Source: Streptomyces diacarni
GTDB taxonomy: Bacteria > Actinomycetota > Actinomycetes > Streptomycetales > Streptomycetaceae
Length of the DNA stretch: 64,000 nt
Assembly (NCBI RefSeq): GCF_003323715.1
Contig: NZ_QOIN01000048.1
Location: 372,001-436,000, forward strand
Direction of reading: 5' to 3'
Each line of letters opens with the position of its first letter. Position 1 is the first letter of the stretch. This document shows, in pieces, positions 26,862 through 32,200 of the stretch. The position numbers and the translations under genes were made by a program. The notes beneath the pieces are model-generated. The model saw nothing but the letters and a program-made list of their open reading frames with translations, ran no database searches and had not been told where the DNA came from.

Positions 26862-27488
26862 TCAGCGGGGAGCCGACGCGGAGCCCAGACCTTCCAGCAG
26901 CAGCGTGGTGAAGGTGGCCGCCCAGGCGCCGTCCACCGGGCAGTCGCTCACCAGCGACCTGTGCACCACGGCCCCGGCGATCACGTCGAAGATGAGGTCG
27001 ACGACCCGCTCGGTCTCGGCGGGGTCGGCGGAGTCGGGGGGCAGTTCACCCCGCTGCTGCGCCCTGGCCCGGCCGTCCAGGACCAGGCGCTTTTGGCGGT
27101 CGACGATGGCCGCCCGGATCCGCCTGCGCAGCGCCTCGTCGGTGGTGGACTCGGCGAGGACGGCCATCAGCGCCGTTTTGGCCTCGGGGCGGCGCAGCAG
27201 GGCGGCGAAGGAGAGGACGACGCCCTCGATATCGGCCCGCAGGCTGCCGCCGTCGGGGAGTTCGAGCTCGTCGAAGAGGACGGCGACGGCGTCGACGACG
27301 AGTTCACTCTTGGCCGCCCAGCGCCGGTAGAGCGTGGTCTTGGCGACACCGGCGCGGCGGGCGACCTCTCCCATGGTCAGCTTCGACCAGCCGACCTCGA
27401 CGAGCGCGGTGCGCGTGGCGTCGAGGATCGCGCGGTCCGCCGCGGCGCTGCGGGGGCGTCCGCGTCGGGGAGCGGGGCAACCTGCCAT
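26862..27488 (-). CDS. TetR-family transcriptional regulator
   Basis: Repressor of 208 residues. The N-terminal HTH reads ILDATRTALVEVGWSKLTMGEVARRAGVAKTTLYRRWAAKSELVVDAV, standard for the family, and is preceded by a basic arm (RRGRPRS). The C-terminal ligand domain resembles the TetR_C class with PDG and RPEAKTALMAVLAESTTDE. The ATG at 27488 is chosen as it gives the usual short arm; an ATG at 27554 would add 22 residues. A TACCG/CGGTA palindrome lies 11 bases upstream, a good autoregulatory operator. The likely targets are itself and the PPOX gene downstream. Confidence 0.9.
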   Translation of the reverse strand: MAGCPAPRRGRPRSAAADRAILDATRTALVEVGWSKLTMGEVARRAGVAKTTLYRRWAAKSELVVDAVAVLFDELELPDGGSLRADIEGVVLSFAALLRRPEAKTALMAVLAESTTDEALRRRIRAAIVDRQKRLVLDGRARAQQRGELPPDSADPAETERVVDLIFDVIAGAVVHRSLVSDCPVDGAWAATFTTLLLEGLGSASAPR

Positions 27489-27498
27489 GCGCCGACCA

Positions 27499-27510
27499 TA
27501 CCGAGCGGTA
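27499..27510 (-). promoter_or_regulatory. Putative TetR operator
   Basis: TACCG-AG-CGGTA, a 12-bp inverted repeat, sits 11 bases upstream of the TetR start codon, in the position expected of an autorepressor site. Confidence 0.5.
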
Positions 27511-27603
27511 CGGAGGCTCTTGGAGAGCGCGGAAGGCGCCGTGAGGCGGATCACCGGGCAGCGCCCGTGGCCGCCCTTGCGGAGCGGTTGCCCCTTCGAG
27601 TTA

Positions 27604-27726: not shown

Positions 27727-28686
27727 ATGCAGCCACGCAACATGTCCATGAGCGGAGTGGTCGACCTCGCCGCGGTGAAGGCGGCCGGAGAGGCCAAGCA
27801 GAAGGCGGAGCAGGCGCGGGCCGACGCCGCCGAGGGCCACGGCGCCCCGGCCCCGGCCGGCCTGGTGATCGAAGTCAGTGAGGCGACGTTCGAGGCGGAG
27901 GTGCTCCAGCGCTCCGCCGAGGTCCCGGTCGTCATCGACTTCTGGGCCGAATGGTGCGAGCCGTGCAAGCAGCTCTCGCCGGTTCTCGAACGCGTCACCC
28001 AGGAGTACGCGGGCCGCGTGCTGCTGGCGAAGATCGACGTCGACCAGAACCAGATGCTGATGCAGCAGTTCGGCGTCCAGGGCATCCCGGCGGTGTTCGC
28101 CGTGGTGGCCGGGCAGGCGCTGCCGCTGTTCCAGGGGGCGGCCCCCGAGCAGCAGATCCGCGCGACGCTGGACCAGCTGATCGAGGTGGCCGAACAGCGC
28201 TTCGGCATCACGGGCCTCCAGGGCGTTGCCCAGGAGCCCGCGCAGGAGGAGCCCGTCGAGCCCGAGGTGCCGGAGGATCCGGTGCTGGCCGCGGCCCAGC
28301 AGGCGCTGGACGCCGGCGACCTGTCGGGCGCCATCCAGGCCTACCGCAACAAGCTGACCGACGAGCCGGCCAACGTCGAGGCGAAGGTCGGCCTGGCCAT
28401 GGCCGAACTCCTGGCCAGGGTGCAGGAGTTGGACGCGCGCCAGGTCCGCAAGGACGCGGCCGACCGGCCCGGCGACGCGGCCGCGCAGCTGCGGGTCGCG
28501 GATCTGGACATGGCGGGCGGCCACGTCGAGGACGCGTTCAGCCGGCTGGTGGACACGGTGCGCGGCTCGGCGGGGGAGGACCGGGACGCGGCGCGGGTGC
28601 GTCTGCTGGAGCTGTTCGAGGTGATCGGTCCGGAGGATCCGCGCGTCGTCACCGCGCGTGCGGCACTCGCTCGCGCGCTGTTCTGA
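27727..28686 (+). CDS. Thioredoxin-TPR protein, CnoX/YbbN-like
   Basis: Cytoplasmic protein of 319 residues. After an Ala/Glu/Lys-rich arm, a thioredoxin domain spans about residues 47-155 with the active site WCEPC (Cys77, Cys80) and the cis-Pro loop GIPAVFAV. TPR-like helices follow (about 190-319), such as AAQQALDAGDLSGAIQAYRNKLTDEPANVEAKVGLAMAELL. This order is that of CnoX, the chlorine- or oxidant-protective chaperedoxin that hands clients to GroEL. E. coli CnoX has lost the redox Cys pair; here both Cys are intact, so it may be a real disulfide reductase. The gene stands alone on the plus strand, facing away from tetR. Confidence 0.92.
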   Translation: MQPRNMSMSGVVDLAAVKAAGEAKQKAEQARADAAEGHGAPAPAGLVIEVSEATFEAEVLQRSAEVPVVIDFWAEWCEPCKQLSPVLERVTQEYAGRVLLAKIDVDQNQMLMQQFGVQGIPAVFAVVAGQALPLFQGAAPEQQIRATLDQLIEVAEQRFGITGLQGVAQEPAQEEPVEPEVPEDPVLAAAQQALDAGDLSGAIQAYRNKLTDEPANVEAKVGLAMAELLARVQELDARQVRKDAADRPGDAAAQLRVADLDMAGGHVEDAFSRLVDTVRGSAGEDRDAARVRLLELFEVIGPEDPRVVTARAALARALF

Positions 28687-28747: not shown

Positions 28748-28793
28748 AACAGCGGCCGCACTTTGCCAAAACTTGGCAATTGCGGCCGCTGTT
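28748..28793. terminator. Very strong nested hairpin after the thioredoxin-like gene
   Basis: AACAGCGGCCGCA (28748-28760) pairs with TGCGGCCGCTGTT (28781-28793), and inside it TTGCCAA (28763-28769) pairs with TTGGCAA (28773-28779) around AAC. About 20 base pairs in all, with one bulge. It begins 61 bases after the stop of the thioredoxin-like gene. It may be a terminator, or the inner TTGCCAA-AAC-TTGGCAA an operator. Confidence 0.7.
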
Positions 28794-28805
28794 ACTCGTC
28801 GTAAC
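28791..28805 (+). promoter_or_regulatory. GTTAC-N5-GTAAC element A
   Basis: GTTAC-TCGTC-GTAAC, followed by GAAA. It overlaps the right arm of the hairpin. The same GTTACTCGT...GTAACGAA layout recurs 128 bases downstream. Confidence 0.45.
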
Positions 28806-28918: not shown

Positions 28919-28936
28919 CGTTACTCGTAAGTAACG
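28919..28936 (+). promoter_or_regulatory. CGTTACT-N4-AGTAACG element B
   Basis: A perfect 7-bp inverted repeat, CGTTACT and AGTAACG, around CGTA. It is the stronger of two related elements upstream of the DUF6230 locus and a good candidate operator for a dimeric regulator. Confidence 0.5.
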
Positions 28937-29386
28937 AACCCCCTTGTGTCACGGGCTCAGATGCACCACGATCGGCCAGGCTCGGTCCATTGCCCGCAGC
29001 CCGGCAACCATTCGGCGCCCCGCAGGCGATGGGTCCCCACCGAGCGGACCGGCACCGCACCATCCGCACCCGTACCACCCCGTCCCAACCGCCGGTCCGC
29101 AAGGACAGGGGGGTCCCTGCTCCACGGCAGGGCCTGTCCTCACAAAGCAAGGTTGCGCGAGAGCGTGGCCCGTGGTTGTCGCTCGGGGGTGATCGTCGAC
29201 AGCTCGGACGTGTCGTACCAAGAACGCCGCGTGCGGGCGACGTTGGCGCTCTCCGTTCCGAGGACGTAGCTCTTCTCCCTCCCCAGCCCCGTGGCCGGGA
29301 GGTACCCCCACGGCAGGAGCGGCCCGCTGAGTACAGGCGGCACGGCTCTCCGAGCCGGAGATGTACGTCCGAGAAGGAGGAAAGTC

Positions 29387-30004
29387 ATGGAGTCCCTGGC
29401 TCGTGGCGGGACCAGATGGAAGCGGTTCGCCGTCGTCATGGTGCCGAGCGTCGCCGCTACGGCAGCGATCGGCGTGGCCCTGTCGCAGGGCGCGTTGGCG
29501 GCGTCGTTCAGCGTCTCCGGCCAGCAGTTCAAGGTGACCGCCGACAAGCTGGATGGCACCGGCTTCGTTCAGTACGGCGCGATCGACACCACCCAGAAGG
29601 GTAAGAAGGCCGTCGCCGTCGTCGGCATGGACTCGGCGAAGATCACCAATCTCTGCCAGTCCGTCGTCGTCCCCGTCCCGGTCTTCGGCGACATATCGAT
29701 GAAGCTCAGCGCCGGCGGCGAGGGCGGCCCCCGCGTCGAGGCGAAGAAGCTCTACATCGATGCCGACGACCTGAACGCCAACGCGACGTTCAAGAACATC
29801 GACATCGGCGTCAACGTGGACAAGACCACCAAGGGTCCCGGTCCGCACAACGGCGACGACTACCCCAAGGGCTCCTTCTCCCAGCAGGCGGAGAGCGTCG
29901 AGTTCACCGACGTCAAGCAGCGCGCGTGGGCCACCACCGCCGGCACCTTCAAGCTCAGCGGCCTGCACCTGGCCGTCAAGAAGGGCAAGAGCGAGTGCTA
30001 CTGA
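29387..30004 (+). CDS. DUF6230 secreted or membrane-anchored protein
   Basis: A 205-residue protein of the DUF6230 family. It starts MESLARGGTRWKRFAVVMVPSV, followed by one hydrophobic segment (about 14-37, signal peptide or anchor) and AASFSVSGQQFKVTADKLDG. The rest is beta-rich and Lys-rich, ending with a LSGLHLAVKKGKSECY tail whose Cys could pair with the Cys in ITNLCQSVVV. The ATG at 29387 has AAGGAGG 7 bases upstream. A DUF6114 protein gene follows at 116 bases. The repeated GxxFKVTAD-like strands could form a lipid- or polymer-binding beta structure, but the family has no proven function. Confidence 0.88.
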   Translation: MESLARGGTRWKRFAVVMVPSVAATAAIGVALSQGALAASFSVSGQQFKVTADKLDGTGFVQYGAIDTTQKGKKAVAVVGMDSAKITNLCQSVVVPVPVFGDISMKLSAGGEGGPRVEAKKLYIDADDLNANATFKNIDIGVNVDKTTKGPGPHNGDDYPKGSFSQQAESVEFTDVKQRAWATTAGTFKLSGLHLAVKKGKSECY

Positions 30005-30120
30005 CGTGAGCGCCCCGCGGGTCCGGAGGAAACAGGGGCGCCCGCTCCGCTTCGCCCTCCGGGCCCGTAGGGTCCGCTGCACCCAGCAAGATTTGTGCCA
30101 GTTCCGAGGAGCCCGTACCC

Positions 30121-30717
30121 ATGAGTGCCGACACGCCAGCGAGGACGACGACCGGATTCGGCCACAGGCGGCAGGCCTTCCGTAACTGGCGCGGCCAGCG
30201 CCCGTTCTGGGGCGGGATGCTGACGCTGCTGGCCGGCATCCCGATCATGTACGTCCCCTACCAGAACCTCACTCTGGGGTCCCTGACCATCCGGATGTCG
30301 ACGACCGCGGGCGCCGGCTCGCTGATCATCGGCGTACTGCTGGTGGTCCTCGGGCTGACCATGTGGTTCCAGCCCCACTCGCGGGTCTTCGCCGGCATCG
30401 CCGCGATCCTGCTCGCGCTGGTCTCCCTCGTCGTGTCCAACTTCGGCGCCTTCCTGATCGGCTTCCTGCTCGGACTGATCGGTGGCGCGCTGGGCGTCTC
30501 CTGGGCCCCCGCCAAGCCGGCACGGGCCGAACGCGGCGCCAAGGACACGACCGGAACGGCGAGTGCCCCGGCGACCGCCGCCGACGAAGAGGCACCGCCC
30601 GCACAGGACCCGGCCGCCCCCCAGCAGGGCCCCCGGGACGACACTGCAGTCTCTGAGGCGTCCCCCGCAGCCGGGGCCGACGCGCATGACGGGAACGGGA
30701 GGCACCGTGCCGGGTGA
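30121..30717 (+). CDS. DUF6114 integral membrane protein
   Basis: A 198-residue DUF6114 protein with four hydrophobic helices: WGGMLTLLAGIPIMYVPY, SLIIGVLLVVLGLTMWF, VFAGIAAILLALVSLVVS, FGAFLIGFLLGLIGGALGVSW. A Pro/Ala/Glu-rich cytoplasmic tail follows. GFGHRRQAFRNWRGQRPFWGG is the conserved N-terminal motif. RBS GAGGAG lies 10 bases before the ATG at 30121. It sits between the DUF6230 gene and the charged secreted protein, overlapping the latter by 11 bases, so it is the membrane member of a three-protein system. Function is unknown. Confidence 0.88.
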   Translation: MSADTPARTTTGFGHRRQAFRNWRGQRPFWGGMLTLLAGIPIMYVPYQNLTLGSLTIRMSTTAGAGSLIIGVLLVVLGLTMWFQPHSRVFAGIAAILLALVSLVVSNFGAFLIGFLLGLIGGALGVSWAPAKPARAERGAKDTTGTASAPATAADEEAPPAQDPAAPQQGPRDDTAVSEASPAAGADAHDGNGRHRAG

Positions 30718-32200
30718 CGAGGTCCACGAGGGGGAGGGCGCGCGCGGGGTCTCCGCGCCCGGCGCCCGGGGGAGAATCGGTCCCCGGCACGCGGCGCCCA
30801 GAAAACCGCTGCTGACCCGGCTCCACCTGCCGGCGGGCAAGGCCGTGGCCATCGCCGCGATGCCCTCCGCCGTCCTGATGGGCATGGGGCTCACCCCCCA
30901 GCTCGCCAACGCCAAGCCCCTGCCCAAGAACCCCTTCAAGGGCGACTCCTGCGTCTCCATCACCGAGCAGCAGGAGACCGAGAAGGAGAAGCAGGAGCGC
31001 AAGGAGCGCGGCGAGAAACTCAAACGCGACCTCGCCAAGGCGCAGGCCGAGCGGGAGAAGGACGCCAAGGAGGCCAAGGAGGCCGAGGAGGCCGAGGAGG
31101 CCAAGGAGAAGGCCGAGGGTGACAAGGGGGGCTCCTCGGACGAGGGCTCGTCGAAGAAGCCCTCCGGCTCAAACGAGAGCTCCTCCACCCCCTCGGACGC
31201 CCCCTCCGGCTCCGACGAGCCCTCCACGCAGCCGGAGGACTCCGCGGGTTCCTCCTCCTCGTCGTCCTCCTCCGAGGAGGAGAAGAAGGAGAACCCTTGG
31301 TACGACCCGCTGGGGCTCGGCCAGAAGCTCGAGGACACCTTCAACCCGAACAAGGGCGGGGACAAGGACGAGGACAAGGACGAGCCCGCCGACGAGCCGG
31401 AGACCTCGCCCAGCCCCGACCCGACACCCTCCTCGCCGTCGCAGGACGACGACTCCGGCTCCGGTAAGCAGCGCAAGTCCCCGGCGCCGGGTGACAGCTC
31501 CGGCGGCGACCGGTCCGACGCGTCCGAGTCCGGGAAGCCGTCCGGGTCCGGGGCGGACGAGGACTCCCCGTCCAAGAGGGACACCGAGAAGGACTCCCCG
31601 TCCAAGAAGGACGCCAAGGACGACAAGGACGCCAAGGACGACAAGGCCTCCGACAAGGAGACCGGCGTCGACAAGAAGGACGGCACCGTCCGGGACTACG
31701 ACCCGGACAAGGACGCGGGCAAGCCGTTCCCCTGCCCGGAGAAGAAGGACGTCGAGGGCACCGCCGAGCAGACCCCCGCCCAGGTCGCCAACGACCCCTG
31801 GTTCCTGGAGGCCTCCTCCCTCACCCTCAAGGGCCTCGACTACAAGGGCGTCGTCAACATCACCACGCCCGACGGCAAGACCAAGCAGGCCCTCAAGTTC
31901 ACCTCCAGCGGCCTCGACATCGGCGACCTCCACCAGACGGTGAAGGGCCCCGACGGCCTCACCTACCACGTCCAGGCCGCCGAGGGATCGACCTCCACCA
32001 TCCGCGACGGCGAGGTCACGATGTACACGGAGGAGCTGAAGGGCAACCTCTTCGGGATTATCCCCATCACGTTCAGCCCGGACACCCCGCCGCCGATCAA
32101 CGTCCCCTTCGCCTACTTCACCGACGTCTCGGTCAAGCAGGCAGGCCAGTTCGGCGGCACGCTCACCATCCCGGGCCTGCACCAGTACGTGACGAAGTAG
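30707..32200 (+). CDS. Large charged secreted protein of the DUF6230/DUF6114 locus
   Basis: A 497-residue protein. The GTG at 30707 is chosen because GGGAGG lies 4 bases upstream; an in-frame ATG at 30686 has only a weak site. A hydrophobic segment (KAVAIAAMPSAVLMGMGLT, about 40-58) acts as signal or anchor and is followed by one Cys. Residues ~75-140 are a Lys/Glu helix, ~140-330 a Ser/Asp/Lys/Glu linker with no fold. The last ~160 residues are a beta-rich domain (LTLKGLDYKGVVNITTPDGK, GLDIGDLHQTVKGPDG, IPITFSPDTPPPINVPF, GTLTIPGLHQYV) with the same alternating pattern as the DUF6230 protein. I infer a surface polymer or envelope partner of its two neighbours. Not recognised as a named family. 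Confidence 0.82.
   Translation: MPGDEVHEGEGARGVSAPGARGRIGPRHAAPRKPLLTRLHLPAGKAVAIAAMPSAVLMGMGLTPQLANAKPLPKNPFKGDSCVSITEQQETEKEKQERKERGEKLKRDLAKAQAEREKDAKEAKEAEEAEEAKEKAEGDKGGSSDEGSSKKPSGSNESSSTPSDAPSGSDEPSTQPEDSAGSSSSSSSSEEEKKENPWYDPLGLGQKLEDTFNPNKGGDKDEDKDEPADEPETSPSPDPTPSSPSQDDDSGSGKQRKSPAPGDSSGGDRSDASESGKPSGSGADEDSPSKRDTEKDSPSKKDAKDDKDAKDDKASDKETGVDKKDGTVRDYDPDKDAGKPFPCPEKKDVEGTAEQTPAQVANDPWFLEASSLTLKGLDYKGVVNITTPDGKTKQALKFTSSGLDIGDLHQTVKGPDGLTYHVQAAEGSTSTIRDGEVTMYTEELKGNLFGIIPITFSPDTPPPINVPFAYFTDVSVKQAGQFGGTLTIPGLHQYVTK

Follow-up and report, generated by a model that had tools for sequence, protein, structure and literature searches.

A stretch of 64,000 nucleotides from Streptomyces diacarni (RefSeq assembly GCF_003323715.1, contig NZ_QOIN01000048.1, positions 372,001 to 436,000; hereafter the window) carries at 29387–32200 three adjacent plus-strand genes. 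They encode a member of the family DUF6230 (DUF, domain of unknown function), a member of DUF6114 and a third protein, P3, whose C-terminal domain is, by profile comparison, homologous to DUF6230. Our preferred reading, which we put forward tentatively, is that the three genes form an envelope module, in which the DUF6114 membrane protein would work with two homologous exported domains that handle lipids.

The first gene (29387–30004, plus strand, at the position of S. coelicolor SCO5420) encodes DUF6230, a protein of 205 residues, exported as judged by eye from its N-terminus. PF19741 covers it over the whole profile, 1–145, with 198.9 bits against a Pfam cut-off of 27.5. The second gene (30121–30717, plus strand) encodes DUF6114, a small membrane protein of 198 residues with four hydrophobic stretches recognised by eye; PF19609 covers it over the whole profile, 1–106 (126.1 bits, cut-off 27.9). 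P3 (30707–32200, plus strand) has 497 residues and a GTG start 11 bases upstream of the DUF6114 end, and the two genes overlap by these 11 bases. It is laid out as a signal or anchor (by eye), a charged stretch, a long Ser/Asp/Lys linker and a C-terminal beta domain encoded at 31751–32197, placed by hhalign and the structure model. The Pfam scan of P3 returned no family above cut-off, and an NCBIfam scan of the locus gave nothing near the NCBIfam cut-offs. The coordinates and the Pfam assignments of both DUFs agree with a preliminary description of the window, made from its letters and reading frames, which had placed three plus-strand genes here.

The three genes are closely linked. A scan of named genomes took the best 80 of 553 relatives, with 77 records titled Streptomyces and three titled Streptomycetaceae or Actinobacteria bacterium. 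DUF6230, DUF6114 and P3 are all present in order in 78 of the 80 loci; in the two incomplete loci, L120 and L128, the contig ends before the third or second gene. Counted without any position preference, 75 of the 78 loci have an in-frame candidate start exactly 11 bases upstream of the DUF6114 end (next commonest position, 39), so that the overlap first read from the window would recur at the same place. Among 296 genomes sampled across the phylum, 19 have DUF6230 and 23 have DUF6114 (21 over cut-off). DUF6114 follows on the same strand within 291 bases after 27 of the 28 DUF6230 matches, the exception being one copy in genome G062. Two of the 29 over-cut-off DUF6114 matches (G026 and G098) have no DUF6230 match at threshold; beside each, a DUF6230-like frame is seen by eye. 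The preliminary description had allowed that the genes might rarely be adjacent in other genomes, and these counts speak plainly to the contrary.

Of 292 genomes, 12 gave a P3 match, namely nine from the window's genus (its own included), G204, G225 and G075. The G075 match is weak (E 0.006), lies inside an amylase-like protein and is not counted. In G204 and G225, P3 stands at the same place relative to the DUF pair. All 61 sampled genomes of the window's genus carry DUF6230, in one to four copies each. Seven plasmid records carry it as well, two of them Rhodococcus (L195 and L198) with an annotated DUF6114 overlapping it by 7 bases. The phage search gave no DUF6230 match.

The homology of the two beta domains was examined with three alignments on the DUF6230 side and one on the P3 side. 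A1 holds 25 of the 28 phylum-sample DUF6230 matches (L018, L019 and L023 left out); A4 holds 44 P3 domains, from the window, from 41 of the 78 Streptomyces-type loci (redundant or short ones dropped) and from G204 and G225; A5 comprises 54 sequences selected from these loci. In the hhalign comparison of A1 with A4 the alignment runs from one end to the other over 136 columns, with E 7.3e-6 and a score of 40.7. With reversed profiles E is 0.56–0.8, and the best of 60 column shuffles reaches E 0.097 and score 16.3. A narrow DUF6230 alignment of ten sequences (A2) matches the P3 domain weakly, with probability 5 and E 0.008; the wider A1 matched it clearly in both runs (E 1.6e-5 in the first, 7.3e-6 in the second), and the 54 rows of A5 give E 5.4e-5. 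Strand states agree at 82% of the aligned pairs, versus 65% for the best version slid by at least 3. Judged from these profiles, the C-terminal domain of P3 is a distant homologue of DUF6230. The strand pattern that the preliminary description had seen in the first and third proteins thus reflects homology. On sequence and strand order, the basis for assigning them a common fold, the two domains do not look like unrelated folds.

A natural fusion points in the same direction as the linkage. In G204 a single frame of 512 residues unites DUF6114 and the P3 domain with a linker and one more hydrophobic stretch, which speaks for a joint function of DUF6114 and the P3 domain. The idea of a membrane anchor with two surface partners, proposed when the locus was first described, is therefore upheld in its outline: a membrane protein and two exported partners with a common domain are kept together, and one partner is found fused to the membrane protein.

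Relatives of DUF6230 also occur elsewhere near the pair. In family f18, which belongs to another class of the phylum, a protein of 814–945 residues is encoded divergently at the four loci read, at most about one gene from the DUF6230–DUF6114 pair. The N-termini of these proteins align with the first part of DUF6230 over 91 columns (P0001 residues 33–130, E 3.9e-8; reversed 0.3, best of 40 shuffles 0.15). Therefore the pair again has a second DUF6230-like protein nearby at these loci, where P3 is absent. The one f18 protein scanned with Pfam, of 844 residues at locus L171 (4506–7040), joins the DUF6230-like stretch to an SLT transglycosylase and an M23 peptidase domain. The pair at L171 lies about 7 kb or less from genes for 3-hydroxyacyl-CoA and acyl-CoA dehydrogenases, and it adjoins a TetR gene.

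Some further DUF6230 copies have neighbours of their own. The cluster in G062 (L167, 7137–11621) comprises three DUF6230 genes, two DUF6114 genes and a gene for a 326-residue protein without recognised family; as a further DUF6230 relative this protein is unsupported (E 0.083). Rare extra copies at L174 6323–8108 (G161) and L175 6748–7578 (G128) adjoin genes for MPAB/Lcp-type oxygenases (rubber oxygenase family), and a third such neighbour, G318:C20, is among the PF09995 matches listed.

The AlphaFold2 models predict both DUF6230 and the P3 domain to be all-beta. The DUF6230 model has a mean predicted local distance difference test (pLDDT) value of 82.3, with values of at least 90 for 127 residues and under 50 for residues 1–40; that of the P3 domain has 95.7. 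In Foldseek searches neither model matched a PDB entry at E 1e-3 or better, nor did the DUF6230 model match anything in BFVD at that level. A LolA-superfamily chain appeared weakly in the PDB search (E 0.21, template modelling score 0.11). A second fold comparison gave for DUF6230 a best Z of 3.4 (root mean square deviation 4.4 over 90 aligned residues, acetoacetate-decarboxylase-like) and for the P3 domain a best Z of 2.5 (4.7 over 75), both below the tool's stated background. The DUF6230 and P3 profiles found chance-level matches only among PDB chains. It is a possibility that the two domains have a new fold, of which missing PDB matches are not proof.

The region between the thioredoxin gene and DUF6230 is also conserved. 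The preliminary description had noted palindromes and no gene in the 700 bases before DUF6230; inverted repeats are present and no protein gene is seen, and the region holds in addition an RNA and promoter-like elements. The RNA is che1 (RF02935) at 29102–29198 on the plus strand, a full-length match to model positions 1–91 with 89.5 bits against the Rfam gathering cut-off of 54.1. It is found at six of 18 further DUF6230 loci, namely at every one of the six first-copy loci from the window's genus in that set; among the 18 it was not found at six second or third copies, nor at six loci of other genera. PMC8079986 lists che1 in S. lividans before SLIV_11405, under 'cholesterol metabolism'. PMC11678152 describes the RNA as being of unknown function, and the reference given for it in PMC8388888 is Weinberg 2017.

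Upstream of che1 stand three palindromic elements. The first, after the thioredoxin gene at 28748–28793, was found by repeat search as a strong inverted repeat of 16-base arms, 94% complementary, centred on CCAAAACTTGG with arms GCGGCCGC; its core TNCCNAANCTTGGNA is kept in 71 of 81 upstream regions (the window and the 80 loci). It may be a terminator or an operator. Site A, a TTACN5GTAA palindrome at 28792–28804, is found in 77 of the 81 regions, farther up than site B. Site B at 28920–28935, the palindrome GTTACTCGTAAGTAAC, is a candidate operator; TTACN6GTAA occurs at −285 to −470 in 80 of the regions. The reversed-string control is 0 for both sites. Directly after site B, a promoter-like stretch on the plus strand (28943–28973) has CTTGTG and ACGATC at near-fixed distance in 79 of the regions, with no occurrence of the reversed strings. 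Because the regions are orthologous, these counts show conservation and not independent origin. The exact 16-base palindrome of site B is a single copy in the 7.66 Mb genome. A TetR gene at 26862–27554 finds no support as the gene of the site B regulator; the window holds no further site that differs from site B at two positions or fewer.

The palindrome has other sites. Exact TTACTN4AGTAA occurs five times in the window's own genome (control 0) and 17 times in five relatives (control 1). One of the five own-genome sites is that of the DUF6230 locus; others lie before an acyl-CoA dehydrogenase gene and before an Fe-S/CCG oxidoreductase gene, and at one more no gene is called. One-mismatch palindromes lie before a DUF4442 (thioesterase-like) gene and between genes for an S15-type peptidase and a nitrilase-like protein. 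In the relatives, 15 of the 17 sites were read, with gene identities from Pfam of single examples. Five are the DUF6230 locus; the other ten are at luciferase-like/aldo-keto genes (four), thiolase/reductase genes (two), NYN genes (two), an Fe-S oxidoreductase gene and a TetR gene. Fatty-acid-type targets (thiolase/reductase or Fe-S oxidoreductase) thus account for three of the ten non-locus sites, and taken together the targets lean, short of proof, to fatty-acid metabolism. A second recurring target is seen at L180, L183, L184 and L186, where TTACTN4AGTAA lies between or at genes for a luciferase-like monooxygenase and an aldo-keto reductase.

The first gene has a label in the literature. The locus is flanked on the left by a thioredoxin gene (27727–28686) and on the right by a gene for an APH-type kinase, beyond which pyruvate kinase and then acetate kinase are read by eye. 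In S. coelicolor, SCO5419 is given as thioredoxin and SCO5423 as pyk2. Since the order in the window is thioredoxin, DUF6230, DUF6114, P3, kinase and pyruvate kinase, SCO5420 is equated with DUF6230, by gene order alone. PMC7494193 calls SCO5420 a cholesterol esterase and reports a rise of almost 37-fold on Tween. The preliminary description knew no described role for either DUF; this has to be corrected, in that the SCO5420 position carries an esterase label, doubtful on structure, and the leader is a catalogued RNA. What already exists are the DUF names, this label and che1. For DUF6230 the literature search found a promoter list alone (PMC12835213), and for DUF6114 nothing. Literature on the SCO5419–5422 region gave no mention of SCO5421 or SCO5422, nothing on the locus was found in PMC13118837, and nothing in print was found on the homology of the two domains, the three genes as a set, the fusion or the palindrome, in a search mostly outside subscription papers.

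The label and the protein share their place between thioredoxin and pyk2, and there they part. DUF6230 is predicted to be all-beta and has no conserved histidine, and it stands with DUF6114 and a homologous partner that are absent from the passages found on the label. The mature part of the model consists of strands and one 3-residue helix, with no alpha/beta-hydrolase architecture. No conserved Ser-His-Asp/Glu triad was found among 39 first-copy DUF6230 sequences, in which His reaches at most 28% at any mature column and the best Lys and Glu columns reach 92%. A check of polar, charged, Cys and Trp residues gave S40, S44, Y63, C90, D125, W181, T183 and C204 as the invariant mature residues. 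Because DUF6230 lacks both the hydrolase architecture and a conserved histidine, it is unlikely to be a classical esterase, and the label on this gene is doubtful as far as the model can tell. Since the labelled protein does not resemble a known esterase, the gene set is more likely a lipid-handling device of the envelope.

In the envelope module that we prefer, a core Streptomyces component, DUF6114 would sit in the membrane and DUF6230 would be exported. P3 would also be exported, and its long flexible linker could span the wall, ending in the second DUF6230-type beta domain. The two beta domains may bind lipids or lipid esters, or extract them, within the envelope or outside it, and may join DUF6114 in a complex at the membrane, for instance for the inward passage of fatty acyl groups when Tween-like lipids are the carbon source. 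The three genes would be transcribed together, probably from the promoter-like stretch behind the palindrome; a regulator that responds to lipids may act at the palindrome, and che1 would be carried in the leader of the transcript. The link to lipids is suggested by the rise of SCO5420 on Tween, the palindrome sites and the dehydrogenase neighbours at L171.

Several observations weigh against such a module. No lipid-carrier fold (LolA, LppX/LprG, TULIP) is recognised among the PDB matches of either model. In the phylum sample, DUF6230 is accompanied by P3 in 11 of the 19 genomes that carry it. Tween induction is known for DUF6230 only, of the three genes. Other papers show the S. scabiei 'cholesterol esterase' C9Z6Y6 as not specific to growth on suberin (PMC4098958) and 'cholesterol esterase' genes as responding to nitrogen (PMC3087709) and to xylose or xylobiose (PMC12772271), all three matched to DUF6230 by label only; a DUF6230 gene of S. 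albulus is on the above list of moderate, presumed constitutive promoters. The two Rhodococcus pairs adjoin four glycosyltransferase-type genes and FUSC and YihY/BrkB envelope genes. As to the palindrome, the spacer of the acyl-CoA dehydrogenase site is common to a UDP-sugar-dehydrogenase-like gene and that of the Fe-S/CCG oxidoreductase site to a DnaK gene (both by eye), a further own-genome site lies between genes for a small exported protein and a nonribosomal-peptide-synthetase-like protein (the latter by eye), and in relatives the palindrome also precedes NYN and luciferase-like/aldo-keto genes.

A bolder form of the same proposal is that a single new beta fold is common to DUF6230 and the P3 domain, which would found an actinobacterial trans-envelope lipid-transfer system with DUF6114 as the receiver and under fatty-acid and che1 control, the esterase label then reflecting lipid binding or a side activity. 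We consider this rather unlikely.

Alternatively, DUF6230 could be a true secreted hydrolase of cholesterol or fatty esters with an unusual all-beta fold and an unusual catalytic site, which DUF6114 and P3 anchor or present. The name of SCO5420 and its rise on Tween argue for this, and PMC5158115 puts the S. scabiei proteins C9Z6Y6 and C9YUN4, so labelled and matched to DUF6230 by label only, at 33–39% and 2–5% of the lipid-metabolism class among extracellular proteins. The probable origin of the label is the work of Xiang and colleagues, with Streptomyces cholesterol esterases in the titles of their 2006 and 2007 papers. Against an enzyme stand the missing hydrolase architecture in the model and the scarcity of histidine in the mature columns. 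The enzymes of Xiang and colleagues may be DUF6230 proteins. We consider a hydrolase rather unlikely.

The beta domains might instead bind peptidoglycan, teichoic acid or a glycan, with P3 spanning the wall and lipids not being the ligand. The long linker of P3 would suit this, as would the L171 protein with its SLT and M23 domains and the surroundings of the pair in the two Rhodococcus plasmids. The Tween induction, the fatty-acid-type neighbours and the palindrome sites tell against a wall or envelope polymer as the ligand, and we regard it as rather unlikely. Both it and the hydrolase are serious rivals to lipid handling, which we hold the likeliest function. That three unrelated genes are neighbours by accident is hardly credible, given the linkage, the fixed start of P3, the common domain and the G204 fusion, and no point in its support was found.

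The locus matters since DUF6230 is present in every sampled genome of the genus while the enzyme label of its counterpart is unsupported by the predicted structure. If lipid handling is true, two DUF families would gain a function, che1 a target, and lipids a route of uptake through the wall. Should DUF6230 prove to be an esterase, it would represent an unrecognised esterase fold.

LppX/LprG and LmeA/DUF2993 are lipid-binding, beta-rich exported proteins of actinobacteria. DUF6230 and the P3 domain resemble these carriers in their proposed job only, and differ from them in that the PDB chains yield neither a relative by sequence nor a clear match in fold. With the Pfam families the relation is direct, in that the first two proteins of the locus are full-length members of DUF6230 and DUF6114, both families described as of 'unknown function'. 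The RNA in the leader is likewise a member of RF02935, and the stretch in the window shows no difference from the che1 family.

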